Notes under the pieces: model-generated
Database searches by the model: none
Told to the model about the DNA's origin: nothing
Seen by the model: only the letters and a program-made list of their open reading frames with translations
Made by a program: the position numbers and the translations under genes
Shown: positions 657-57,335 of the stretch, one piece after another
How positions within the stretch are numbered: the first letter of the stretch is position 1
Layout: each line of letters begins with the position of its first letter
Source of the DNA: Loxodes magnus
Taxonomy: Eukaryota > Ciliophora > Karyorelictea > Loxodida > Loxodidae
Assembly (NCBI GenBank): GCA_946699065.1
Contig: CAMPDV010001564.1
Coordinates: forward strand, 37,473 to 101,472
Length of the DNA: 64,000 nucleotides
Direction: 5' to 3'

Positions 657-1499
657 ATGACGATAGAAATCAGAGTCAAGAGGAGACTAGAATCAGTGTA
701 ATGATTCTTATGTAAAAGAAAAATTATATATTTGATATTGAAAAGTATATGGAGGTAAATTAGATCAACAGATTTAATTAAAAATAAATTTAAGAAGTGA
801 AAAGAGGATTTACTAAAATAAAGATGCTATCTAAGAGAAAGATACTAAAAATGATTATAGTCATATTAAGAAGTTCCAAAAATTATGGATGTATTGAGAA
901 GATTTGAGAATTGTCAATATGAAATTTTTTCAAGGTTGTTGAAATAAATAAGTAGGCTATAAGAATTTATGACCTAAGAAAGGAAAGAGGGATATGATTT
1001 CGAAGCTTACCGTTTAATAAAATCTTTTGCAGCTCTAATTAGTAGTAAACTTTTGGTGACGTTTTATTAATATATTTTGATATTGGTTTATTCAAAGACT
1101 AAAATTATAATAATATAATTTGAATAGATAGGAGTAACCATTCAATTTAGATCGTCAAAAAAATTTAATAGCAAAAAACATTGGGCGTGAAGAATGACTC
1201 AAAATGCTTGTTAGAAACTAAGAAGGACAGAATAAAAGAAATTCAAGTGAAATACTAAAGGATGACAAATATTAAGTTATTTAGATCATCATTGCTGAGC
1301 ACATTATATCTGGAATGCAAGATTTTAAATGATAACGAAAGATAAATTTATATTGTGAGAGCTTTAACCTTTTAAAAAGATAATTTAAATAGGAAACGTG
1401 ATGTGCTTCATTTTCTAATCTTTTTTATTATAATTTTTTTAAATAAGTTTTAGAGTATTGTTAACTATTTAATTATTATTTTATTTATTAATATTATTT
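657..1499 (+). other. Open frame upstream of WD40 fragment, doubtful
   Basis: An ATG at 657 opens a frame (TAA/TAG=Q, TGA=W) that is in phase with the WD40 fragment that follows and could be its N-terminus. However it contains about eight in-frame TGA codons in 281, close to chance for this base composition, and no domain is visible. The last 100 bases are almost pure A/T. It may be a decayed N-terminal part or simply non-coding sequence. Confidence 0.25.
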
Positions 1500-1934
1500 G
1501 TCTCAGCAATTAAAGATAAAACGATAAAGATATGGAATTTCTAGGATGGAACCCTCCAAAGAACTTTAGAAGGTCATTCGTATTCCGTTTTATCGATAGC
1601 TATATCTCATGACATGAAATGAATTGTCTCTGGTTCAGCATCTTATGATAAAACTATAAAGATATGGGACTTCTCAACAGGTCAGTTGATTCGAACTTTG
1701 GAAGGGCATAAAGAAGGTGTACCAAGTATTTAGATTAGTGCTGATTCGAGTGTTATCTTTTCTGGATCATGAGATGGAACTATTAAGATATGGAGTTAAA
1801 ATACGGGTGAGTGTATATAGACTTTATAAGGGCATACAGGCTACATAGCTTCAATACTATTGAGTGTTGATGGTAGATGATTGATATCTGGAGCTTGTGA
1901 CAGAATGGTGAGAAGGTGGAAGATTGCGAGTTGA
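1500..1934 (+). pseudogene. WD40-repeat gene fragment, 5' end missing or decayed
   Basis: About three and a half WD40 blades read in one frame: DKTIKIW, then blades with GHSYSV, GHKEGV and GHTGYI signatures, ending RRWKIAS before a TGA at 1932-1934. TGA is read as Trp in MKWIVSGS, SGSWDGTIKIW and GRWLISG, and TAG/TAA as Gln in TLQGHTG. WD40 propellers are protein-binding platforms. The blades closely match the C-terminal blades of the complete WD40 gene at 12.1-13.0 kb on the other strand (shared SADSSVIFSGS and GECIQTLQGH), so the two are paralogues. The first blade lacks its beginning and the upstream sequence degenerates into A/T, which suggests a 5'-truncated copy rather than a working gene. 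Confidence 0.55.
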
Positions 1935-12082: not shown

Positions 12083-13033
12083 TCAATTCGTAATCCTCCA
12101 CTTTCGCACAGTCTTGTCATATCCTCCCGATACCAACCATCTATTGTCAACACTCAATGCAATAGAAGATATTTATCCTATATGCCCTTATAAAGTCTAG
12201 ATACACTCACCCTTATCAAAATTCCAGATCTTGATTGTTCTATCCAATGAACCAGAAAATATAACACTTGAATCAGCACTTAACTGAATACTTCATACAG
12301 CATTTGTATGACCTCGAAGAGTACGAATACACTTGCCAGTTGAGAAGTTCCATATCTTAATAGTCTTGTCAATAGAACCCGATATGATATACCTATTATC
12401 CTTAGACACTATTACCGATCTAACTTCACTTGAATGCCCAGATAGAGTTCGCACAAGTTGACCAGTCTAGAAATCCCAGATCTTTATGGTTTTATCCCAA
12501 GATCCCGATATAATAAAGTTAGAGTCAGGAGAGATTACTATCGATCTAACTCAGTGAGTATGTCCCGTTAAAGTTCTTTGGAGAGCACCAGTCTATGAGT
12601 TTCAGATCTTTATCGTGTTATCCCAAGATATTGATACAATATAGTTAGAATCTTGGGAAATTAATACCGAGGAAACTGAATCAGTATGTCCTGTTAAAGT
12701 TTTTATAAGGGTTCCATTGTGGTAATTTCAAATCTTTATCGAATTTTCAGGATATCCTAAACCTGATACAATTCAATTTAGGTCCCTTGATATGGCTACC
12801 GAGTAAACAAATGAGGTATGACCTGTAATGACTTAGTCTAAAAAAATTAAAAAAATACCTTTACTTTGGTCATAACTGATCTTATTTATAAGTTTTTAGT
12901 AACATAAGTTGGGCAGAATTTCATACTTAAAATGAAGAAGAGATATTTTCCCTAGGATGTGATTTTTCGCTCTTTGGAGTTTTCTTAAAAAAATACTTTT
13001 AGTAAATTGCTTTTCTTTTTTCTCCATTTTCAT
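12083..13033 (-). CDS. WD40-repeat protein, six blades
   Basis: Start ATG at 13033 (a second at 13027), stop TGA at 12085-12083 followed one codon later by another TGA. A basic N-terminal segment of about 60 residues precedes six WD40 blades (GHTSFV, GHTDSV, GHTHWV, GHSSEV, GHTNAV and GHIGQI, each closing with IKIW or VRKW). About five in-frame TGA codons serve as Trp, including GHTHWVRS where Trp is the usual residue. A 21-nt GT...AG segment at 12,838-12,858 lies at the junction between N-terminus and propeller and looks like an intron; its removal leaves 309 residues in frame. WD40 proteins act as binding scaffolds; the partner is unknown. It is a paralogue of the fragment at 1.5-1.9 kb and resembles the propeller of the NLR at 27.5-32.4 kb. 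Confidence 0.85.
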
Positions 13034-22104: not shown

Positions 22105-22875
22105 TCAATACATACCTCCAGAGTTCGTTCCTTGAGGTTTAAAATAAAAGTTCGGGACTCCCAGTTTTTTTGGAGTTCTGGCACTCCCTTGAAAAAGCCT
22201 CCTTCTAAATATTCTTCCATCCTTGTCTACATAAATTCTTGAAAGTTCTCTCCAAATCTCTTCACTGTTTCTTCTCTGTTTATCCAAATATATCTTGCAT
22301 CTCTTGTATGTGTGGAATTTTGATTTGCACAGGTAGCACAGTTTGACGATCCTTCTGGGAGGAGTTATCTCTAAGGGTTTTGTGTATTCTAGTTCCATTT
22401 TATTTTCAGCTAAAGTTTAAGGTTAAATTCTTTTTTCTCCCAAAAGTTTCACTTCGATTTCCTGTTTCATTAATCTTTCTTCATTGTTTTAACTTTTCTA
22501 TAGTAATTTTTAGTTTTCTTTCTTTAATATTTAAACTTCTTCTTATAGGTTATGGATAGATTTCATAAGTTATTCTATTATTAGCTATTCATCATTTTTC
22601 TATTTCTACATTATTTTTTAGTTACCACTTTTCATGTAGTTGCTTGATCGTGGCTATGGAAGTAAAAAGTCTCGCTTGCTTTAGTCAGTTTCTGTTGATT
22701 TAATTTCTTATTCAATTTAAGATTATCTTTATTTTTCTAAATTTGGGGATTAAAGAGCCTAAGAAAATTATTATATTATTAAAGAAGACGTGGTAGGAGA
22801 AGAATTAGAAGTCTCTGGTTTTTTTTCCTTTTTCTATGGAGCTGGAAAAAAACCCTTCCTGAGACCTTCTGCCAT
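22105..22875 (-). CDS. LINE-type ORF1 protein: coiled coil plus CCHC zinc knuckle
   Basis: A single open frame of 256 residues runs from ATG 22,875 to TGA 22,107-22,105, with TAA/TAG as Gln throughout. It has a Ser/Thr/Pro-rich N-terminus (KKEKKPETSNSSPTTSS), a long coiled coil around residues 100-155 (NLQEEVQILKKENQKLLQKS), then a zinc knuckle C-x2-C-x4-H-x4-C (CYLCKSKFHTYKRC) near residue 180 and a basic C-terminus. This is the plan of nucleic-acid-binding ORF1/Gag-like chaperones of non-LTR elements, which coat element RNA. No RT follows it, since the kelch pseudogene starts 250 bp downstream, so it is either a truncated element or a domesticated ORF1. The frame is intact, unlike the LINE ORF2s here. 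Confidence 0.7.
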
Positions 22876-23480
22876 TTTTTATATAATAGAATCCTTAATA
22901 GGACTATATTAAACTAATTTAAAAACTATGTAATATAAAAATAATACATTAGAATCATTAAATAAGCTTCTATCTACAGATTTTATAATCAAACCAATAA
23001 AAAATATGAAGAACAATAATTTGCTATAAACTTAAGAGATTGAAAACACAAAGATCAATAAGGGATCAGTTTAGATGGAACACGTCTAAATGTATAAAAG
23101 ATTAATTAAAATTGTTACTAATGACAAAAAATGTATTTAATGGAATAGTCATATTTAATGTGACTTTTAAACAATAAAATAGATTAAATTTAATGAAGTT
23201 TCAACAATCATTATTTTCATACTTTAATTAAAATTCTCTAGGCTTAAAAAGATGATGTAACTTTTCTAAATTAAGTAATAGCTTCTGATTAAACATTTTA
23301 TTCATTTAAATTTGGATTTTATTTCTAGTATTTTTTAAATAGTTCAGTTTAACTTTATACTTATGTTGCTTTTAAGCTGTTTTAACATTAGAAGAAATGA
23401 AAGTATGTAGTGATATGGTACTAGCTAAAAAGTAGAAATTATAATATTAATATTTAAAGAAGTGATTCAATAATAAATAA
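22876..23480. other. Spacer upstream of ORF1
   Basis: AT-rich; probably the remains of the spacer between kelch and tRNA-Lys in the duplicated segment, with about 35 bp just before the tRNA copy still clearly matching the flank of the intact tRNA. Confidence 0.4.
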
Positions 23481-24319: not shown

Positions 24320-26190
24320 TTAGGCTCGCTTACAAATTATAATGTCTTTAGATTATTCACTAGCAAAAAACCTATTTTAATCATGAGTCACAATATTTTT
24401 TTCTTCTTATGATAATTCTAAATCAATGATATTTTAGACTTCACAGTAATCTCTTATCGAAGTGTGGGTAAATTAAATTCTATTTTTGTAGCTTTACTCT
24501 TCTATCTATATCAAACATCCTATATAACTTTATTTTTATTGAATTACTCTCTTCACTTTTAATTTCATTCTTCAAAATTTCTAGCAGGCACTGATATATT
24601 CTATAGTATATGGATGCTTTTACCTTATTTGAAAGCGCTGTTTATTGCCTTATATTATCCCAATTCATCATGCGCATCAGATAATAATAATAATAATAGT
24701 AAACAAAAGTAATAAAAGTTTAGTCTCCTCTAGATTTTCAACTAGGTTTTTGCTACCATTTTTTAGCGTGGGTAGAAAGACTGAGAATCTTCTGCTTTTT
24801 ATGCAAATAATTTTTTCTTGTATACCCCTGTTTGAGTAATTCAGAGTCTGCTGATCATGCTTAACGTTCTTCTTTGTTCTTTTATCTATATTTACCTTTA
24901 TTTATCGCAATTTTATAATAAGTGCCATTTTGATTTGGAATAATAGCATTATTTAATTTGTCTTTTCTTTAATCTATTCAGAAATAATTTTTTCAAATTA
25001 GCTAATTCTTTTGAGTAAGTCTATATTAATCTTTTCGTCATTCTATTTATGGACTTTTGCTTATGTAAAAACTTTTTCAATTATCATATTTTGTTCTTGC
25101 TTAAAATTCGATTGAGATTATTCATATAGTTACTATTTCGTGACTAAATTATTCTAAATCAATTGTCGTCTAATTATAAGTAACTCATTATTTTGATCTT
25201 TGCTAGTATTCATTAGTTCTCTTAGTTTTTCCCCTTGATTGCAAATTGTTTCCTAATAATTATGTATTATTGTTTTCATTTATTCAAGTTATATTTGTAA
25301 TTATGATTAATTTTGCACCTTTATTAGATTTGTCTCTATTGTTCTGACTATGACTTTTCCTTCAGATGAGGAACTTGATTTATCTTCTTTCTTTTGTTGT
25401 CTCGCGTTTGTTTCGCTGCTTTCCTTTTGCGTTTTTAATTAGGTTTTTGGAAAGGCGAATAGAATATACAATTTTCTTTATACACGTCAAATAAAAACAA
25501 TATTTTATAAACTTAAAATTTTATTTCTCTTAAATTGTACTATTTTAAAAAGCAAATTCTTTTAATTTATTTTCAAATGCTTTAATGGTTGGAAGATATA
25601 CTAATATATATAAATATTCATTATTATACTCTAGATACTTTAAAGTTAGAACTTCTAAAAATAAATTTTTCCAGAACCAGAATCTCAAAAATTAATAATC
25701 CTGTTTACCTATCATTATCTAAAAATTTGAAAAATTCAACTGAAGATAGTCCTTAGCCATAAACTTGGATTTAGAGAACATTATAAACTTAAGAAATATT
25801 CTTGTTTCTTTATATATCATCTTTTTTATTTTTTATCATATTTTAATAGATACTTTTTTTACATTTTAAAGCAAGTCAGTTCTATTCTATTGTTTAAGTA
25901 AATTAAAAAGCAAGCTCTAGATGAGTTAAAATTCAAGTTTATATCAAGTCTTAATTTCCAAATGACACAATATTTTAGAATTATAATAATCCATCTTCGA
26001 TATATTACCTTGCTAGATCATAAGCAAGAATATCAAAGATATTTAACATTAAAATTGTTTTTTTATGGATTTTTTCATTTATCTATCCATGACTCCTTAT
26101 AAAGAAATTCTTTAAGATGGAGATAACATTAGTATCCATAATTCCAACTCAAAAATACAAAGAAAACAACTTTCTGACAATCTAAATAAA
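24320..26190 (-). pseudogene. NACHT-domain gene remnant
   Basis: On the minus strand it is a broken relative of the intact NLR at 27.5-32.4 kb. Landmarks in order: a segment near 26,100 matching the region before the NACHT domain; QEYF.SL.C near 25,800 matching EYYVSLLCAPS; DSGSGK Walker A near 25,690; YLPTIKAFENKLK near 25,590 matching HLPTIKQYEDQL; DAHDELG (Walker B region) near 24,660; and the C-terminal NACHT end near 24,430-24,500. Several frameshifts separate these blocks. It is interrupted by an ORF1-type insertion (24.69-25.49 kb) between the two Walker regions. No pentapeptide or WD40 part follows, so the copy is also 3'-truncated. Confidence 0.75.
24692..25485 (-). mobile_element. 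ORF1-type retroelement fragment inserted in the NACHT remnant
   Basis: This segment has no counterpart in the intact NLR, where the flanking sequence is continuous. On the minus strand it encodes a Ser-rich stretch and then a long coiled coil (QLQIQLEQMKTIIHNYQETI and following, about 170 residues with no TGA), like the ORF1 at 22.1-22.9 kb but without a visible zinc knuckle. It ends in a TTA tail (plus-strand 24,680-24,700), the same tail type as LINE copy 1. The flanks show a diverged target duplication (CATCAGATAA on one side, CGTCAAATAA on the other). It lacks an initiator at its 5' end, so it is probably 5'-truncated. Confidence 0.65.
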
Positions 26191-26279
26191 ATTAAAGAAC
26201 CATCAAAATAGTGATTTAATATATTATTTGGACAATATTAAATTTAAAAATTAGATTTTTTATCTTAAAGTGTTAAACA

Positions 26280-26860
26280 AACTTTTAAAATTTTATTCCG
26301 TCACAAAAAATTTTATTCCGTCCCAAAAAAATTTTGTTCCGTCCCAAAAAATTTTGTTCCGTTCCAAAAAATTTTGTTCCGTTCCAAAAAAAATTGTTCC
26401 GTCCCAAAAAATTTTGTTCCGTTCCAAAATAAATTGTTCCGTCCCAAAAAATTTTGTTCCGTTCCAAAAAAAATTGTTCCGTCGCAAAAAAAATTATACT
26501 TTCCCAAAAAAAATTATACCGTCCCAAAAAAAATTTGTTCCGTCCCAAAAATATTTGTTCCAAAAAAATTCGTTCGAAAAAATTTATTCCGTCCCAAAAA
26601 AAATTTATTCCGTCCCAAAAATATTTGTTCCAAAAAAATTCGTTCGAAAAAATTTATTCCGTCCCAAAAAAATTTATTCCGTCCCAATAAATTTTATTCC
26701 GTCACAAAAAAAATATTCCGTCACAAAAAAATTTTATTCCGTCACTAAAAAATTTTGTTCCGTCCCAAAAAATTTTATTCCGTTCCAAATTATTTATTCC
26801 AAAAAAATTCGTTCAAAAAAATTTATTCCGTCACAAATTATTTTAGTCCGTCACAAAAAA
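26280..26860. repeat. Satellite, about 20-bp unit, about 28 copies
   Basis: Tandem array of a unit close to TTTTGTTCCGTCCCAAAAAA with variants (TTCCGTTCC, TTCCGTCAC, a GTTCGAAAAAATTTATTCC subtype). It is open in several frames on both strands (Lys/Phe/Pro-Ser repeats), but that is a consequence of the 20-21-bp period and not evidence for a protein. The same core appears once, reversed, at about 4113. It lies between the broken NACHT relative and the 3' end of the intact NLR gene. Confidence 0.9.
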
Positions 26861-27489: not shown

Positions 27490-30400
27490 TCACAATGAAA
27501 GATACCTGTCTCCCATTAGTCTCACATTCATCTACTCCATTGCCACTCCCTCAAAGTCACATTGATGCACCACCAATCTATTCCTTCCCATCATCCTCTT
27601 TAACAGATAATCCCGATGATCCTTTGCTAACTCCCATATCTTGATTGTTTTATCCTAACTTCCTGATATTAAATACCTAGAGTCACTTGATAATACCAGA
27701 GAAAGAACAGACCAAGTATGACCCTCTAATGTTCTTATAAGCTCATATGTTTACATGTCCCATATCCTTATTGTTGCATCATAGCTTCCAGATATTAAAT
27801 ACTTAGAGTCACTTGATAATACCAGAGATTTAACACGATCAGTATGACCCTCTAATGTTCTTATAAGCTCATATGTTTACATGTCCCATATCCTTATTGT
27901 TGCATCATAGCTTCCAGATATTAAATACTTAGAGTCACTTGATAATACCAGAGATTTAACACGATCAGTATGACCCTCTAATGTTCTTATAAGCTCATAT
28001 GTTTACATGTCCCATATCCTTATTGTTCTATCAACACTCCCAGATATTAAATACTTAGAGTCACTTGATAATACCAGAGATTCAACAGTATCAGTATGAC
28101 CCTCTAATGTTCTTATAAGCTCATATGTTTACATGTCCCATATCCTTATTGTTTCACTTCCAGATATTAAATACTTAGAGTCACTTGATAATACCAGAGA
28201 TTCAACATAAGAAGTATGACCCTCTAATGTTCTTATGAGCTTGTATGTTTACATGTCCCATATCCTTATTGTTTTATCATAACTTCCTGATATTAAATAC
28301 TTAGAGTCACTTGATAATACCAGAGATTTAACAATAGAAGTATGACCCTCTAATGTTCTTATAAGCTCATATGTTTACATGTCCCATATCCTTATTGTTG
28401 TATCACGACTTCCAGATATTAAATACTTAGAGTCACTTGATAATACCAGAGAAAGAACAGAATCATTATGTCTTTATAGAGGCTTAGTTAGATTATCTAC
28501 CTACATGTCCCATATCCTTATTATTTCGTCAAATCGTCCACCTGCTGATATTAAATACTTAGAGTCACTCGATAATACCAGAGATTTAACACGATCAGTA
28601 TGACCCTCTAATGTTCTTATAAGCTTATATGTTTACATGTCCCATATCCTTATTGTTTTATCCTCACTTCCTGATATTAAATACTTAGAGTCACTTGATA
28701 ATACCAGAGAAGTAACCCAAGAAGTATGACCCTCTAATGTTCTTATAAGCTCATATGTTTACATGTCCCATATCCTTATTGTTTTATCATCACTTCCAGA
28801 TATTAAATACTTAGAGTCACTTGATAATACCAAAGATTCAACAGAACCAGTATGACCCTCTAATGTTCTTATAAGCTCATATGTTTACATGTCCCATATC
28901 CCTATTGTTTTATCCTCACTTCCAGATATTAAATACTTAGAGTCACTTGATAATACCAGAGAAGTAACATCATAAGTATGACCCTCTAATGTTCTTATAA
29001 GCTCATATGTTTACATGTCCCATATCCTTATTGTTGTATCCTCACTTCCAGATATTAAATACTTAGAGTCACTTGATAATACCAGAGAAATAACAGAACC
29101 AGTATGACCCTCTAATGTTCTTATAAGCTCATATGTTTACATGTCCCATATCCTTATTGTTTCATCAAGACTTCCAGATATTAAATACTTGGAGTCACTT
29201 GATAATACCAAAGATCTAACAGAATAAGTATGACCCTCTAATGTTCTTATGAGCTTGTATGTTTACATGTCCCATATCCTTATTGTTGCATCATAACTTC
29301 CAGATATTAAATACTTAGAGTCACTTGATAATACCAGAGAAAGAACAGAACCAGTATGACCCTCTAATGTTGGCATTTAACCAAAATTAACCTAACTCAT
29401 ATTTGCACCATTGAATTTACAATTTCTCAACCATGCTCCCCTAAAATTCACCCTTGATAAATTAGCACCACTCATATCACAACCATCAAACACCGAATCA
29501 CTCAAATCCGCCCCAGGTACCTATATATTTTGAAGGTCTGTCATCAACATAAACTGATAATCCATCCAATTCAATATTGTTATAGAATTAGCACCCACCG
29601 TTTATAAAGATTTATTGGATTTTGTCCACTTCACTATTTCCAATAAATTTTATTAAAATGTAACCGAACTATCTATCTCCCTTATAAACTACTAGATCTC
29701 CTTATTGTCCACTATCGAATATCTGTTTATTTCGTGAGCTTCTATAGAATTTATGCTATTTTGCTAATTTAAGACTAAATTTACTATATTCCTTGCCACA
29801 TAGTAATCCCTTATCGAAGCATGAATAAATTCAAACCTCTTTTAACCATTTTCCTCTTTTATCTATATCAAACATCCTATGTGGTTGGAACTCTCAGTCA
29901 GTTAATCAATTCATTCCTAGATTTCCTTATCCATACTCTCTAACTTTAACTAACCTCTTAACATCTAGTATGCCGCACTTATTTAAATATCCTAAAATAA
30001 CTTTAACAATGTTTGTATTTCCTCATTTTATTTATTTAATTCTTTTAATTCTTTTAACTTTTATTCAGTTTTATCATTTCATTTATTTATAAAGATCTCA
30101 TATATCTTTGCCCTTTACACTTTTTTATCCACTCCACTCCTCAAATAATTTATTATTTCCTCCTCACTCATACATATATATAACATAAAAGGATTATTTA
30201 GAATTTCCATTAAACCCGGAATACTTTAGATGATACTCATTTACTCTTTTACCTTTTCAATCATTTCTATTTACTACTCATTCACAATTTAACTTGGATC
30301 TTAATTTGCACTTTAACTAGCACCTTGATTCTATTTTCTTAAGATTAAACTTATATATTATTCTATCTAACTTTGATCAAAAGGCTTTATATATACCTCC

Positions 30401-32400
30401 TCCAACTGTTTTACCTAAGCACTTTCATTTCTATAAGGAGAAAAGAAATTTTTATAATTATCAGCTGTTAAAGCATAATTGATTCTACAAGTAATTATAT
30501 ACTTTGCCTAAGGGTATTTATAGCTTATTTTATTTTTACTCATTATGCTAATATAATTTCCTAATTCATCATAAGCATCAAATAGAAACACCATCTTCCT
30601 AAACTTCGAACTTTCATTTTCCTCAATTTTGCAGTTTTTTAAAGCTGTCTCTATTAATTAGTCTTCATATTATTTAATGGTTGGAAGATGAACGTATATC
30701 GGTAGTCAGTCATGCTTCTACTCCAGATACTTAAATGCTAAAGTTTTCAGAAATAGAGATTTTCCGGAACCTGAATCTCCCAAAAGTAATAATCCAATTT
30801 TATCTTTATTGTCTAAAAAGTTCTAAATTTTGCTTTCAAGATTATTTTATTCCTTAGAACTAGGACTAGGAGCACATAATAAACTTACGTAATACTCCTT
30901 CTTTTCTTAAATCTCATTTTATAAATAACTTTTCATATTCTAATATATTTTACTGTCTATACCCTTTAAGGCCAACCAATTCTCCTCCATAGTTTAGGTA
31001 AATTAAGTAACATGGTCCTAATTCTTTAGTATTTCTATTACTATCTATTGTTCCCTATCATTTTAAATTAAACTTTCATTCTTTTGCTTAAATACTCTCT
31101 CTTTGTAAGTTGTAGCTACTTAGTTCTTGTCAATGCTTAGTTCTAATAATGATTTCAAAGCAAAGTATCGAATCTACCAATCTTTATCCTTACACAATTG
31201 TTCTAGCAGCTAGCACGATTCCTTAACTAGTTCTGGAGAAGCTTTAGGATTTTTAATCATATGCTTCAAAAGTTAACATGCTCTAAATCTTAGATCCAAC
31301 TTTTCTTTCAAGACGAGACTTTTAAATTATTCAAATGTTTCTTATGAATATTTAATTACCAAGTCATAGGTAAGGGCATCTAGGTATCTTATTCTAACTA
31401 TTTTTTTAAGGTGAATTTTTTAATTTATTTTCTCAGTTCCCCATACAATGAATTCCTTTATTATGGAGATCGACTTAGTATCTATTGTTCCATCTCCCAA
31501 CGATAAAGCAACTACCCATTAAGTGATTTTTAGTGCCTTACAGAAAACATTAAAGTAATCAGAATCTTTATTGTCTGGAATATTTTCCAATATCATCTAA
31601 CTGTATCTTAAGTCAAAATCAAGCTCGGGACCTCCTATTTACTTTATATTTACTAACTTTAATGCAAACTCAATTTTTTACATGAGTTTCCCTTTCGTTT
31701 CTGCATTTATGAAAAAATCATTATTATTGTTATTTTTCTTACTTTTAGAAGAGTTTTACTCATTCTTCTAAAGCAACATATCCAATAACTCAGGAAGATT
31801 TTATACAAGCTACTCCTTCAAGAGCTAAGACCAACCTTCAGTATATTAATGAGAGACTATTTCTATAAATTGATTAATTAACACCAAAGGATCATCTAGT
31901 TTGGCCAGTTTATTTTTTTGAATGATTTAAATTCCTTGTAGAATTAATTCCATCTTTTACTAGCTTAAACCCTCTTTTAAGAGATTTAATCCTTCTTGAT
32001 AAATCTTTTGCTCCTCAGTTAATAAAACTGGTTATTATGATTAAGTAACATTTGTATTGCTTCCTTATGGGAGTAATTAAGTTAATTGAGGGGTTTAATC
32101 TTTTTACTTCGTACTGCAACAGCCTCCTCCCTTCAGTTTCATACTTTTCTAGAATTTAAAGTTTTAGATTTATTTGATCCGCACTGCTCCTTAATAAGAA
32201 GTCATCTATAAGCTTTCTTTTAGATAATTTGTTTCGTTTATCTAAAACTCTTTAACATCTGGTATTTCTACGTTTACCAGATAAGGATAATTTTGAATCA
32301 AGCTGTAACTTTCAGTACCTTATTAGTATCGTAAGGCATTTTCTGCTATTTGTCCTTGAATATACTCTTCCATTAGTCTTGGCAAAGTTTTATTATCCAT
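27490..32400 (-). CDS. NLR-like receptor: HEAT-like, NACHT, pentapeptide, 14 WD40 repeats
   Basis: One frame of 1,636 codons from ATG 32,400 to TGA 27,492-27,490, which is followed at once by a second TGA. An in-frame ATG nine codons upstream (32,427) is an alternative start. Order: N-terminal helical region with HEAT/ARM-like units around residues 370-430 (DWQIRYFALKSLLEL); NACHT NTPase with Walker A GDSGSGKS at 541-548, Walker B VFLFDAYDEL near 605 and the conserved FEFIHASIRDYYVA end near 875; pentapeptide repeats near 960-1000 (GADLSDSVFDGCDMSGANL); then 14 WD40 units, enough for two seven-bladed propellers. By analogy STAND proteins are switches: ligand binding by the repeats releases the NTPase to oligomerise. 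TGA is Trp in NKWNDK, IQEWIDQL and other positions. Protein and frame are intact. The N-terminal effector is not a known one (no death, TIR or HET domain visible), so the output is unknown. Confidence 0.9.
27530..29390 (-). repeat. Fourteen 126-bp WD40-coding repeats in the NLR
   Basis: The units are spaced exactly 126 bp in the best-preserved part (42 residues: LEGHT-xx-V-x-SLVLSSDSKYLISGS-x-D-x-TIRIWDMQTYELIRT). Outside five codons they are nearly identical at DNA level, including silent sites, pointing to recent amplification or gene conversion. Two units are identical over their whole length. One unit (about 28,520) has a variant hinge (SAGGRFDE), the next begins with a divergent linker, and one (about 28,150) lacks two residues. 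Confidence 0.9.
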
Positions 32401-32427
32401 AAGCTAATTATTACTTGATTTTAGCAT

Positions 32428-45160: not shown

Positions 45161-45240
45161 TTCTTCAGGCTTTAGATTTTCAGTTTTAGTGTAATAATTT
45201 TTATTCACTTAGTATATACCTTTTAAAATAAAAAAATAAC

Positions 45241-45312
45241 GCCGACTAAGGGACTTGAACCCTTGACCACCAGCTTAAAAGGCTGGCGCTCTACCGACTG
45301 AGCTAAACCGGC
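45241..45312 (-). tRNA. tRNA-Lys(TTT)
   Basis: Folds fully: acceptor GCCGGTT with AGTCGGC (two G-U pairs), D arm GCTC/GAGC, anticodon stem CCAGC/GCTGG with loop CTTTTAA (anticodon TTT), T stem AAGGG/CCCTT with loop TTCAAGT. A and B boxes are standard. 72 nt, no intron. A 3'-truncated copy lies at 23.5 kb within the inverted duplicate. Confidence 0.97.
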
Positions 45313-52959: not shown

Positions 52960-54560
52960 TAGCTCTATATTTCTTCTATTCACTAATGTTTCAAAAGAGA
53001 GATAGACTTCGAGATGCTAGAAGCTTATAAATAGTACTTGAAGAAACTCTCTTTTCCTTTCTTTGAAGCTAATACGGAATCATTCCCTTTTACTATTTAA
53101 GTCTACAGTTTTAATGAGACAGAAAGAGAGTAAAACTTAAATAATCACTTAGTATCTTAAAGCTTTAACCCTTACCTGCTTATATAAAGATAACCATTTT
53201 TAGTTAGACTGAAAGATAATAATTAAGATACTGGGTATACTTAAAATGCTAAGAGATAACCTTTCACTAAATGCTATAATTTCTCTTTTATAGACTTGAG
53301 CCAAAAACATCCTTAAAAAAAAGGAAGTTCTATAGCAATATCTCTGGTATAAAAAAATTTGTATAGGTTTGATTTTAAAGTTAAGATCCTAGCTTTATAG
53401 GAAATAAATTCTTTATATAGACAACTTAGTTAAAACGATTTTAATTAAGATATACTGAAGTTAATCTTGCTAATGAGATGTATAGGATTAAATAGCATGC
53501 CACTCTTAAAATTATATGCAAATCAACTAAATATGCTAAAGCTTGGTCTATCTTATAAGTAATTACTTTTAATAGGCAATTAATAAGTTAACTAAGTCCT
53601 TTTGACTCTGTAGTGTAGAGAATTTGGCAATATCTCAATGCTTCTGAGCAAGACGTTAGAAGTTATTTCTCATACTTTTAGCAGTCTGAGATAAAATTTA
53701 GTTTAATCATAGGTAATAAATTTGTAGCTTAATACTTGGAACTTCCTTAGAGAGATTCCAAATTAAATTACTTATTTTTTAACGCCTTACAGCTTTCAGA
53801 TATTCCAATAAGGTAATAATCTGTATTAAACCTTTATTATAAGGAAGAGGCTTAACTGGTAATGTTCGATTTGCTTCATCATGTATAGCTTATTATGATT
53901 ATATATAAAATGGTACCTAAGAAACAATATGATTCTTCAACAAATCCTGATAATTAGCCAGACCTTTTTAGCTACTTTTATCTGCTACAATGGACAATTA
54001 GAAGTTAATAAAAGAAGTTTAAGACATTAAATAAATAACCTAATCTGTTAAATGAATAAAATCCTTAGAGACAATAAAACTAGCACACATCTTCTTAAGA
54101 GGTGGAAAAATAAAATAATCAGATCGAATGGAATTTAAGACAAAAGTTTGACCAGAGATCAATTAATTTGAGCAAATTCAACTTAATTTACAGTCAGATC
54201 CAGAATCGAGAGGAGTGCAGAATCCGTCTTCTCCTATTAGAAAATAGAAAAAAGATATTGATATTGTAAAAAGCACGGGTACTAGGTAAACCAATGCTAT
54301 AGATTCAAGAGAAAATAATATTACGAAACAAAAAGATAGATACAAAATCTATTTAAGATCTATTGCACACCAAACGGAAGAATATATCAAAAAAATTTTA
54401 ACCTTATGTAGAAGCTCCATAGATTACACATGTACTGAGACATTTTGAGAGATGATAAGTAGGATTTGATTCCCAAGCAGTAGCAAGAGGACAAAATAGG
54501 CAATTTATAAGAATTTACTATCCGGAAAAATCAGATGAATATGACATCGAAGATTTCTGA
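52960..54560 (+). CDS. Probable protein of unknown function
   Basis: From about 53,000 one plus-strand frame has almost no TGA for 300 codons and reads KREIDFEMLEAYKQYLKKLS, TESFPFTIQVYSFNETERE and EVISHTFSSLRQNLVQSQV. Near 53,900 the coherent frame changes to one starting MVPKKQYDSSTNPDNQ (ATG 53,910) that runs to TGA 54,558-54,560 with a single internal TGA and a polar C-terminus ending EKSDEYDIEDF. This may be one gene with a short intron near 53.9 kb, or two adjacent genes, the second of 216 residues. The start of the first part is not fixed. No domain recognised. Confidence 0.5.
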
Positions 54561-55121
54561 TAAGAAAAAACCTTTACGAAGTCTGATTAACGATAAAAAA
54601 AAAGGTGAAATCACTTTAATAAATTATGTTATGTTATCTATTTTAATTTTTTTCCCGCTACTAGAATTTTAACTAAAATTTTCAATTTAAAATCCTTTTT
54701 CCAAAAATAAAAATTTGAAATACCGTTACATATTTACATTCTAAGCAACTCTAGTTATTTTAAACTATTTAAATGAAATTTATATTGTTCTTTATTTAGC
54801 TTCATAGAGTCAGCTTTTATTAATTTCATTTTCAGTCCCTTCTAGTTTAAAGGGGCATTTTAACTTAAAAATCATAACTAAAACCTTATGCTTATTTATC
54901 TCCCTTGAGTTTTAAATTCGCCTAAGATTGTAAATTAATGCATGAATAAGGATTTTTTTCTTTAGTTAAAACCAGAAATTTATATTTTGGATTTGCTTAT
55001 TCAGGAAGAAACTAAACTTCGGTTTATCTAGATGTCTTTTAGATTCTAAGAGTATCAAGACTTTTAGGTCGATAAAGTTTGATTTTTACTTTGATTTTAA
55101 AATTTAACTTAAATATATAAA
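54561..55121. other. AT-rich spacer
   Basis: Nothing recognised; upstream region of the RING/B-box gene. Confidence 0.5.
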
Positions 55122-57335
55122 ATGTAAAGCAACTGTAAGATATGTAACAATACTTTTAACGAAATTGATCACCTTCCTAAGAAACTTAATTGTGGCTGCA
55201 CTTTTTGCTTATTGTGTATTTCTATAGAAGAAACTTCATTCACTTGTCCTATAGATGGTTAAATAAATGAAGCAAATCCTGACTAGTTACAGACTGATTA
55301 TGAGATGATTCAAGATTTATAGTTCTAAATTAAAAAGGTAATGAAAGATTCTATTCCAGTGACTAAATCGCTTGAAAACACCTTCATTCCTTTATTGTCT
55401 AAACTTCCTTAGTAAATAGTAAGAAAATCATGGCATCAACAGACAATTAATATGAAATTAAATGAAAGCAAGGCATGCTAGAATCATTCTAACATATAAG
55501 TAGAGCTATTTTGCTTACCATGTGATATCTATATTTGCCATAAATGCACCTTTTAAAACCATAAAGGACATGACTACCATGAAGTTTCTATTGCTACAGA
55601 AATGTTTCGATAAGATCTTCAGGAAATATTAAACTATCTCGATGATCAAAAGTCTAGCTATCTGCAAAATATTCAATATGCGAACTAGTAACTCACTAAT
55701 CTGTGTGATTTCGAACGAGCTTATATATAGGAGCTTCATAGTGTGTATAGTAAAGTTAAATCATAAATAAAGAGTAAATACATAAGCTTAAGTGAGAGTG
55801 TTAAGCTTAATACTCAAAAAGAGTTTTGAAGGATAGAATATCAAAAAGCAAGGCTTTGGCAATAAGTTGATGCTATCAATAATATCAATTAATAAAAAAC
55901 TGAAAGCGATATCAAAAAATTAAAATAGACTATTTAATTGGCAAAACAATAAGCAGAAGCCTAAAGCTATATAGATCTGTCTCTTCATTTAAATCAGGAG
56001 GTAAATAAAAAGGTGATACTATCTTAACTTTTTTCTGATGCTAATAAGGAGTAACACGCAGAGCATTAGCTGTAGATGAGTGCGATAAAAAAACAAATAA
56101 ACGAAAAGCAGTCGTTAGTTTAAAGGTGCATGGATACTATTAACTAGTTAAAGAGTTAAAAGAAAAGCATGTAAGAAGAGATCAATAAAGTTATGTTCTT
56201 CATTTTAACCTAAATGAATAAGTAAGCAGGAGACTATTTGTAGCAGTTTATTGACAATCTCATAGATTACTCTTACATCCATACGGGAAAGAATGGATAA
56301 AGCATGATTACTCCTTTAAATATTCCAATATATGAAGTCACTTTTTTTAAGCAGCATAATAAGAAGAAAACAGCTGAGTATAAATATAACTTTTTAATGG
56401 ATTTTTTTACAAAAATAGAAAGAGAACCAAGAATTTCTCTGGGATGTAGATTTCTTTAAATAAATAATAACTAATATATCATTTCAGGAGGGAAGCTATT
56501 CTAGCAGGAACTGACATACGTCGAAGATGTATATGGAGAAACGATGCAAAGTCAGTAATATCCTTCGATATATCCAAGATACAACCATGGAATATGCTAT
56601 TTTAATAACTTGGTATACTTTATATCTGGATTATACTATGAAAAAATAAAGTAAGTCAACTCTGAATGTTTTAACATAGCTGAAAAGAAATGCTACAGCA
56701 TTGCTCAGATACCCCATCCTACACATAGTTGTGGAGTTAGCGCAATTAAATAATATATGTATGTTTTCGGAGGAATAAGTTCATATGATTAAGCCAGCGA
56801 TTTAATTTAAGTATATAGTCCTTAAAATGATCAATGAGATGTGGTTAATAAAAAGCTTCCAATGCCAATGGCATGTTCTTCGATAATCTGAAACAGCAAT
56901 GAAATATTAATTTTATCATAAGTTCCTCTTAGCGAGTCAAGTAAAGGTTCAACCTTAAAGTTTTTTAAAAACTTAATAAAGGAAAATTCAAGCATTTCAA
57001 AAATTTATTCATTTAGTTCAAGCTAAATTGAAACAGAAAGCACTGAAAAGGAAATTCTTGAAGACATTGATTTTAGATTCCAGCCAATAAAAGTATAAAA
57101 CACAATATATTTCCATCTAAGTAGCGGAGAACTAGGAATTTTTGACTTTTAGAACGAAAAATTAAATAAAAAGCAAGCAAGTTCTGTAGTTTAATTTATT
57201 TTTTCCTCTTTAACTTTCTAATCCAGGTCTCAAAGAACCATAAAACACTTCAAAGCAGAGTATAAATTCATAAATTAAAAAACTTTAAACTCATCATAGG
57301 AGCTAAATCAGTAATCCAATTCTCTTATCTACTGA
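55122..57335 (+). CDS. TRIM-like protein: RING, B-box, coiled coil, kelch
   Basis: ATG 55,122 to TGA 57,333-57,335, 737 residues in one frame. RING finger at 5-55: C-x2-C (CKIC), LNCGCTFCLLC, then CPID. The usual His is replaced by Cys and the last Cys by Asp, both possible zinc ligands. B-box type 2 at about 115-160 (CQNHSNIQVELFCLPC, then CHKC, then paired His). A long Gln-rich coiled coil occupies about 170-360. The C-terminal half is a kelch propeller (YIISGGK, VYFISGLYY, YVFGGISSYDQ, NDQWDV with TGA as Trp). By analogy it is an E3 ubiquitin ligase that self-associates through the coiled coil and selects substrates through kelch. TGA encodes Trp three times (FWRIEY, NDQWDV, IIWNSN). The full-length, intact frame makes it a firm call. 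Confidence 0.92.

Follow-up and report, generated by a model that had tools for sequence, protein, structure and literature searches.

Does a single-celled ciliate possess an intact receptor of the NLR type and, if so, is its WD40 sensor diversified at the same positions as those of the fungal HET receptors? The question is raised by a gene in the window, by which we mean the whole stretch of 64,000 nucleotides analysed here (contig CAMPDV010001564.1, Loxodes magnus, assembly GCA_946699065.1), and for which an earlier note had proposed as much from the sequence of its WD40 repeats. We give a probability of about 0.7 to the reading that this gene, termed the focal gene below (Table 1), encodes a cytosolic STAND/NLR receptor from a ciliate with a karyorelict-type genetic code, bearing a surface-diversified WD40 sensor.

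The sensor consists of 14 WD40 units spanning 29367-27604, a count which agrees with that first made, as do the residues then listed for sites 6, 7, 9, 25 and 27 in all 14 units. The unit length of 42 residues holds for 12 of the 14; unit 7 is longer (44 residues) and unit 10 shorter (40). The units had been described as nearly identical in DNA except at those five codons; mean pairwise DNA identity is indeed 0.87 and change is concentrated there, but identity breaks at the junction of units 7 and 8 and in the tail of unit 14. The median blade identity, for the 12 units of 42 residues, is 0.86, which lies over the 60% threshold for arrays like that of the bacterial protein WRAP. Nor is variation restricted to five codons, as had been supposed: outside the masked stretches silent differences are found at nine other codons (11, 14, 17, 22, 23, 24, 29, 37 and 39) and replacements at three (18, 30 and 38). 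For the counts of steps, codons 23-42 of unit 7, 1-5 of unit 8 and 33-42 of unit 14 were masked together with the gap in unit 10, and the register was kept by dropping two codons of unit 7 and inserting a gap of two codons in unit 10.

A comparison of the 14 units codon by codon revealed the excess of replacement change that had been anticipated at the five sites. By minimum-spanning counts, codons 6, 7, 9, 25 and 27 have undergone 27.5 replacement and 1.5 silent steps (ratio of replacement to silent change, pN/pS, 5.0), compared with four replacement and nine silent steps in the remaining 37 codons (pN/pS 0.13; Fisher P 5.6e-5); at the silent rate of the array only 4.5 replacement steps would be expected at the five codons (Poisson 7e-14). 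Restricting the test to codons 7, 9, 25 and 27, which had already been singled out in fungi, gives a Fisher P of 4e-4 on rounded counts. Star-tree estimates put beta above alpha at codons 6, 7 and 27 (P<0.03), at codon 25 (P 0.08) and at codon 9 (P 0.16), and no other codon reaches P<0.2. Exchange among units is pointed to by the 22 of 55 pairs of 11 informative codons that are incompatible with a single tree; the residues DRK, for example, precede FE in unit 7 and YA in units 12 and 13.

The positions of the variable residues were mapped onto a predicted structure. Units 1-7, together with the strand which precedes them, were folded by AlphaFold2 into a ring of 28 strands, a closed seven-bladed propeller whose TM score by target length is 0.97 both to the prokaryotic WD40 domain 5yzv and to 7big, a seven-bladed design. 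The variable sites of blade 1 are model residues 19, 20, 22, 38 and 40. Strand a spans residues 21-26, strand b 32-37 and strand c 41-46, which places the first three sites before or at the start of a and the last two between b and c; in the model the variable sites thus occupy the d-a loop and b-c turn, in loops of one propeller face. The variable positions of HET-E have been described in the same loop and turn (PMC1805685). As to the two seven-bladed propellers originally envisaged, the first is predicted as a closed ring and the second is putative; 14 units with a divergent 7/8 junction fit two rings, the second of which units 8-14 probably form.

Identification of the protein as a NACHT receptor was also upheld, since PF05729 matches above its cut-off, although only just (28.6 bits with a piece of 454 amino acids and 26.8 bits with one of 929), and the 14 WD40 units are repeats of the superstructure-forming kind found at the C-terminus of STAND/NLR proteins. 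Between NACHT and WD40 lie pentapeptide repeats, for which the NCBIfam matches are all below cut-off and of a generic repeat type (best QnrS, 29.4 bits, cut-off 460). No HET domain was present among Pfam matches of the protein at E<=1, and membership of the fungal HNWD group (HET-D/E/R) was ruled out for lack of it. In the N-terminal region the sole PDB match, at residues 148-211, is weak (4yk8, E 0.21), and a phage search with residues 1-929 gave zero matches.

Table 1. Coordinates of the focal gene, its parts and related features of the window
Feature	Position	Strand	Remarks
NLR-type gene, 1645 amino acids	27490..32427	-	ATG at 32427, coding to 27493, stop TGA 27492-27490
N-terminal region, residues 1-370	31318..32427	-	no known family by family searches; possible effector or adaptor
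HEAT-like region, residues ~378-460	31048..31296	-	three weak matches below cut-off; PF02985 19.9 bits vs 23.5
NACHT NTPase, residues ~547-692	30352..30789	-	PF05729 28.6 bits, cut-off 26.7; GDSGSGKS and FLFDAYDEL, which we take to be its motifs
In-frame TGA, codon 574, read as Trp	30706..30708	-	Tyr aligned in decayed relative
In-frame TGA, codon 783, read as Trp	30079..30081	-	Trp aligned in bacterial WD40 protein L017
In-frame TGA, codon 839, read as Trp	29911..29913	-	Trp aligned in L017
Pentapeptide repeats, best of three stretches	29407..29514	-	PF00805 81.7 bits, cut-off 20.2
Strand before blade 1	29365..29379	-	model strand E10-14; probably closes propeller 1
WD40 units 1-7, first propeller (predicted)	28480..29367	-	pLDDT 91.7, pTM 0.89, TM 0.97
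WD40 units 8-14, putative second propeller	27604..28479	-	boundary at divergent unit 7/8 junction
Decayed relative of the focal gene (HEAT-NACHT part)	24368-26199	-	four BLAST pieces, 35-47% identity, different frames
WD40 frame, six divergent units	12086-12946	-	five in-frame TGA, two at canonical WD-motif Trp
Short WD40 frame, possibly a fragment	1497-1934	+	similar to the 12 kb frame; three TGA inside

The same pattern of variation was found in bacteria. The comparators were 22 bacterial arrays with at least five canonically spaced units, taken from 40 fetched loci (of which L011 repeats L001); units of other spacing are missed within these arrays, the comparison is limited to residues 1-33 of each unit, and the loci were selected for likeness to the ciliate array and are hence a non-random sample. 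For plasmids, nine records were examined of the 351 with a match (355 in a further search). Ten arrays from nine loci have a median identity of at least 0.73, and in these the five positions account for 44-82% of the entropy over 33 residues; the ciliate array, with 91%, has the highest share of all. Replacement steps exceed the silent rate with P<0.01 in nine of the ten, the exception being L016 (P 0.13). In four arrays (L002, L008, L009 and one of the L024 arrays) the most variable five positions are precisely these; a further four arrays have four of them among their top five, and L004 and L016 have three, position 27 ranking 27th in variability in L004 and 18th in L006. Over all 42 residues, some bacterial arrays vary at additional positions, 35 and 41 for example. 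The other 12 arrays have shares of 21-39%, none with P<0.05, from saturated counts which carry little information on selection. The sources of the ten arrays are plasmids of cyanobacteria and Bacteroidota, and genomes belonging to the same phylum as a Rhodospirillales metagenome-assembled genome; a WD40 protein of the latter was the one relative recovered by a scan of genome contigs which yielded 44 stretches. In viral contigs the protein and alignment queries found 7 and 19 pattern-matching stretches respectively and zero encoded relatives. On a Haliscomenobacter plasmid, L008 (1670-6106) encodes a protein that combines a caspase domain with NACHT and repetitive WD40 units. These units have a median identity of 0.76, and the five positions at which they vary most coincide with those of the focal array; a second annotated NACHT gene adjoins this one.

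Taken as a receptor, the focal protein might work as follows. At five sites per blade, located in loops on one face of the predicted ring, replacements exceed the silent rate, and recombination among units keeps the remainder alike; a second ring would be formed by units 8-14. The two propeller faces could bind a variable protein ligand, which would release the NACHT switch, and the signal may be relayed by the N-terminal region together with the HEAT-like one. That a variable ligand is recognised has good support, insofar as the evolutionary pattern of a single allele can speak for it, and the role may be one of self/non-self or pathogen recognition. From what is generally known of NLRs, and not from any result of this analysis, a foreign intracellular ligand such as a parasite, symbiont or virus protein is more likely than an allelic self protein. 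Several points weigh against this reading. The five sites were picked partly for their variability, star-tree counts ignore shared history, codons 9 and 25 miss P 0.05 on that tree, and the selection pattern comes from one allele in one sequence. The modelled stretch was seven units by choice, the alignment supplied for it was largely built from the array itself in shifted register, and an AlphaFold prediction of 661 amino acids made without an alignment reached a pLDDT of only 33.5. Lastly, residues 1-370, the putative effector, match no family in Pfam, NCBIfam or the other N-terminal searches.

The best-surviving alternative, although an unlikely one, is allorecognition, in which the protein would respond to allelic self proteins when cells conjugate or fuse, in the way that HET-D and HET-E sense HET-C. 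The variable codons are common to the relatives of HET-D and HET-E, and high internal identity with mosaic units is likewise a property of the hnwd family; however, the focal protein has no HET domain, and bacterial proteins show the pattern where such conjugation would presumably not occur. Less probable again is an ordinary WD40 scaffold freshly amplified from one blade, the five positions being merely loosely constrained surface loops. Recent amplification has been reported across all major propeller lineages (PMC9218822), and the five positions are mildly enriched in low-identity arrays too (share 0.21-0.39 vs 0.15 for 5/33), but relaxed constraint predicts that pN should approximate pS, and the observed values are 2.33 and 0.38.

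Returning to the receptor reading, whether the gene is intact depends upon the genetic code. Within the focal gene Gln is spelled TAA or TAG at 97 codons, and the frame ends in TGA with a second TGA directly after it (tandem TGA TGA at 27492-27487). Inside the frame of 1645 codons three TGA are seen, compared with about 39 expected from base composition. A ciliate-type code, as inferred at the outset, was thus borne out, and the gene fits table 27, in which TAA and TAG are Gln and TGA is both Trp and stop; the Condylostoma code is a possible alternative. This usage, with TGA as Trp inside genes and as stop at their ends, is that of karyorelict ciliates (PMC11441545). We read TGA in this way on account of the alignments of TGA with Trp: those with L017, those among the WD40 frames of the window and that with the decayed relative, where elsewhere a TGA of the relative aligns with a Trp spelled TGG in the focal gene. 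The codon-use signal is mostly positive over the frame and about zero in some stretches, including most of codons 1-110. The gene is intact if TGA is Trp and not under table 6, where codons 574, 783 and 839 would be stops. A pseudogene, or an artefact of repeat assembly, carrying in-frame stops is very improbable: repeat arrays are prone to misassembly and a decayed relative lies nearby, but three TGA are far from the number expected by chance, two of them align with Trp of L017, and the 12 kb WD40 frame has two TGA at the canonical Trp of the WD motif; the pseudogene reading was ruled out on these alignments and motif positions. Targeted hypermutation, for example by a diversity-generating retroelement, was ruled out and is the least credible of all, since despite the restriction of variation to few, often NNT, codons and the NACHT-linked sensors that such elements diversify in bacteria (PMC10907252), there is no template copy of the unit in the window, where other WD40-like matches are just 42-51% identical in protein, and the third-position adenine of codon 27 is constant in 14 of 14 units.

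The remainder of the window bears in part on the history of the locus, which has evidently seen both duplication and loss, given that a decayed relative lies beside the focal gene; about 0.8 kb separates the two halves of the Walker B region of this relative. Between the two, at 26287-26800, are tandem units of 20 bases with a higher order of 70 bases. The 12 kb WD40 frame shows no replacement excess (five units, share 0.29, P 0.86), although with saturated counts it is a weak local control. One of the inside TGA of the 1.5 kb frame matches by eye a Trp spelled TGG in the 12 kb frame, and its last TGA, counted as Trp in the step counts, is more likely the stop of that gene. Elsewhere are a frame at ~22200-22900 on the minus strand which has a motif resembling a CCHC zinc knuckle and is possibly retroelement-derived, a single tRNA-Lys(TTT) gene (45240-45312, minus strand) and a TRIM-like frame (53478-56837, plus strand) in which B-box and Kelch lie above cut-off and RING below.

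In the literature searched, mainly titles and the openings of abstracts, no description of a NACHT/WD40 NLR from a ciliate was found among the matches listed. A ciliate example may already be present in the data of PMC9218822, because repetitive propellers from eukaryotes beyond two fungal phyla make up 16% of the eukaryotic sequences surveyed there. Fungal NLRs have been connected with multicellularity on the ground that they are missing from yeasts (PMC4986451); a single-celled protist with an intact NLR that is apparently diversifying, and at the same sensor positions, speaks against a strict connection of this kind. There is possibly a general rule, by which the near-identical WD40 arrays of STAND proteins in bacteria, fungi and a ciliate diversify at largely the same few residues per blade; such shared residues would make predictions of binding testable. 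It is a doubtful speculation that a single-celled ciliate maintains a repertoire of NLRs in which recombination reshuffles the WD40 arrays, perhaps afresh in each somatic nucleus, and that sister clones consequently differ in their recognition surfaces; if true, these surfaces would be built from the same five residues per blade as in bacteria and fungi.

How, then, does the focal gene compare with known systems? With HET-D, HET-E and the HNWD proteins of Podospora it shares NACHT, highly identical WD40 repeats, signs of exchange among units and diversified codons 7, 9, 25 and 27, the codons reported to be under diversifying selection in relatives of HET-D and HET-E, where the WD40 repeats control recognition specificity (Paoletti 2007, PMC1805685). 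In this respect the array itself, with its near-identical units and selected codons, is of the HNWD kind, and the match of variable sites to fungal sites was confirmed for these four codons. A paper from 2025 classes the repeats, in shifted numbering, by positions 10, 11, 12, 14, 30, 32 and 39; fungal sites 10 and 39 correspond to 5 and 34 of the focal unit, each of which differs in just one of the 14 units. The focal protein differs from HNWD in having a HEAT-like region and pentapeptide repeats and no HET domain, and in the number of its similar units, 14; in functional HET alleles there are usually 11, together with three cryptic blades.

Among bacteria, the same domain order occurs in the NACHT-pentapeptide-WD40 protein L005 of Nostoc sp. 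ATCC 53789. In a database of 97 sequences, the NACHT-pentapeptide part of the focal protein is collinear with L005 (20% identity over 594 columns, E 7e-8) and also with L017 (20% identity over 409 columns, E 6e-10). However, the WD40 units of L005 are far less alike (median 0.57, a count with one false unit and several true ones missed) and their variation is not concentrated at the five sites. In L009 of Acaryochloris 'Moss Beach' the 13 counted units are 85% alike and the five most variable positions of 33 are those of the focal array; this protein carries NB-ARC with an APAF-1 helical domain rather than NACHT, and the part scanned gave no pentapeptide match. By sequence, units 1-7 match 2ymu best among PDB entries, which we take to be the WRAP protein Npun_R6612 of Nostoc punctiforme. 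WRAP is a STAND protein with 14 near-identical blades in two seven-bladed propellers, in which ten point mutations, none of them silent, are distributed across the blades (PMC9218822); the focal array is more diversified, mainly at the five sites. The likeness first drawn was to fungal HET receptors, but it is not specific to them, as bacterial WD40 arrays of high identity also vary chiefly at these positions and the focal protein has no HET domain. The fungal comparison is right but too narrow, and the focal gene extends the known STAND receptors with a near-identical, surface-diversified WD40 sensor to another lineage.

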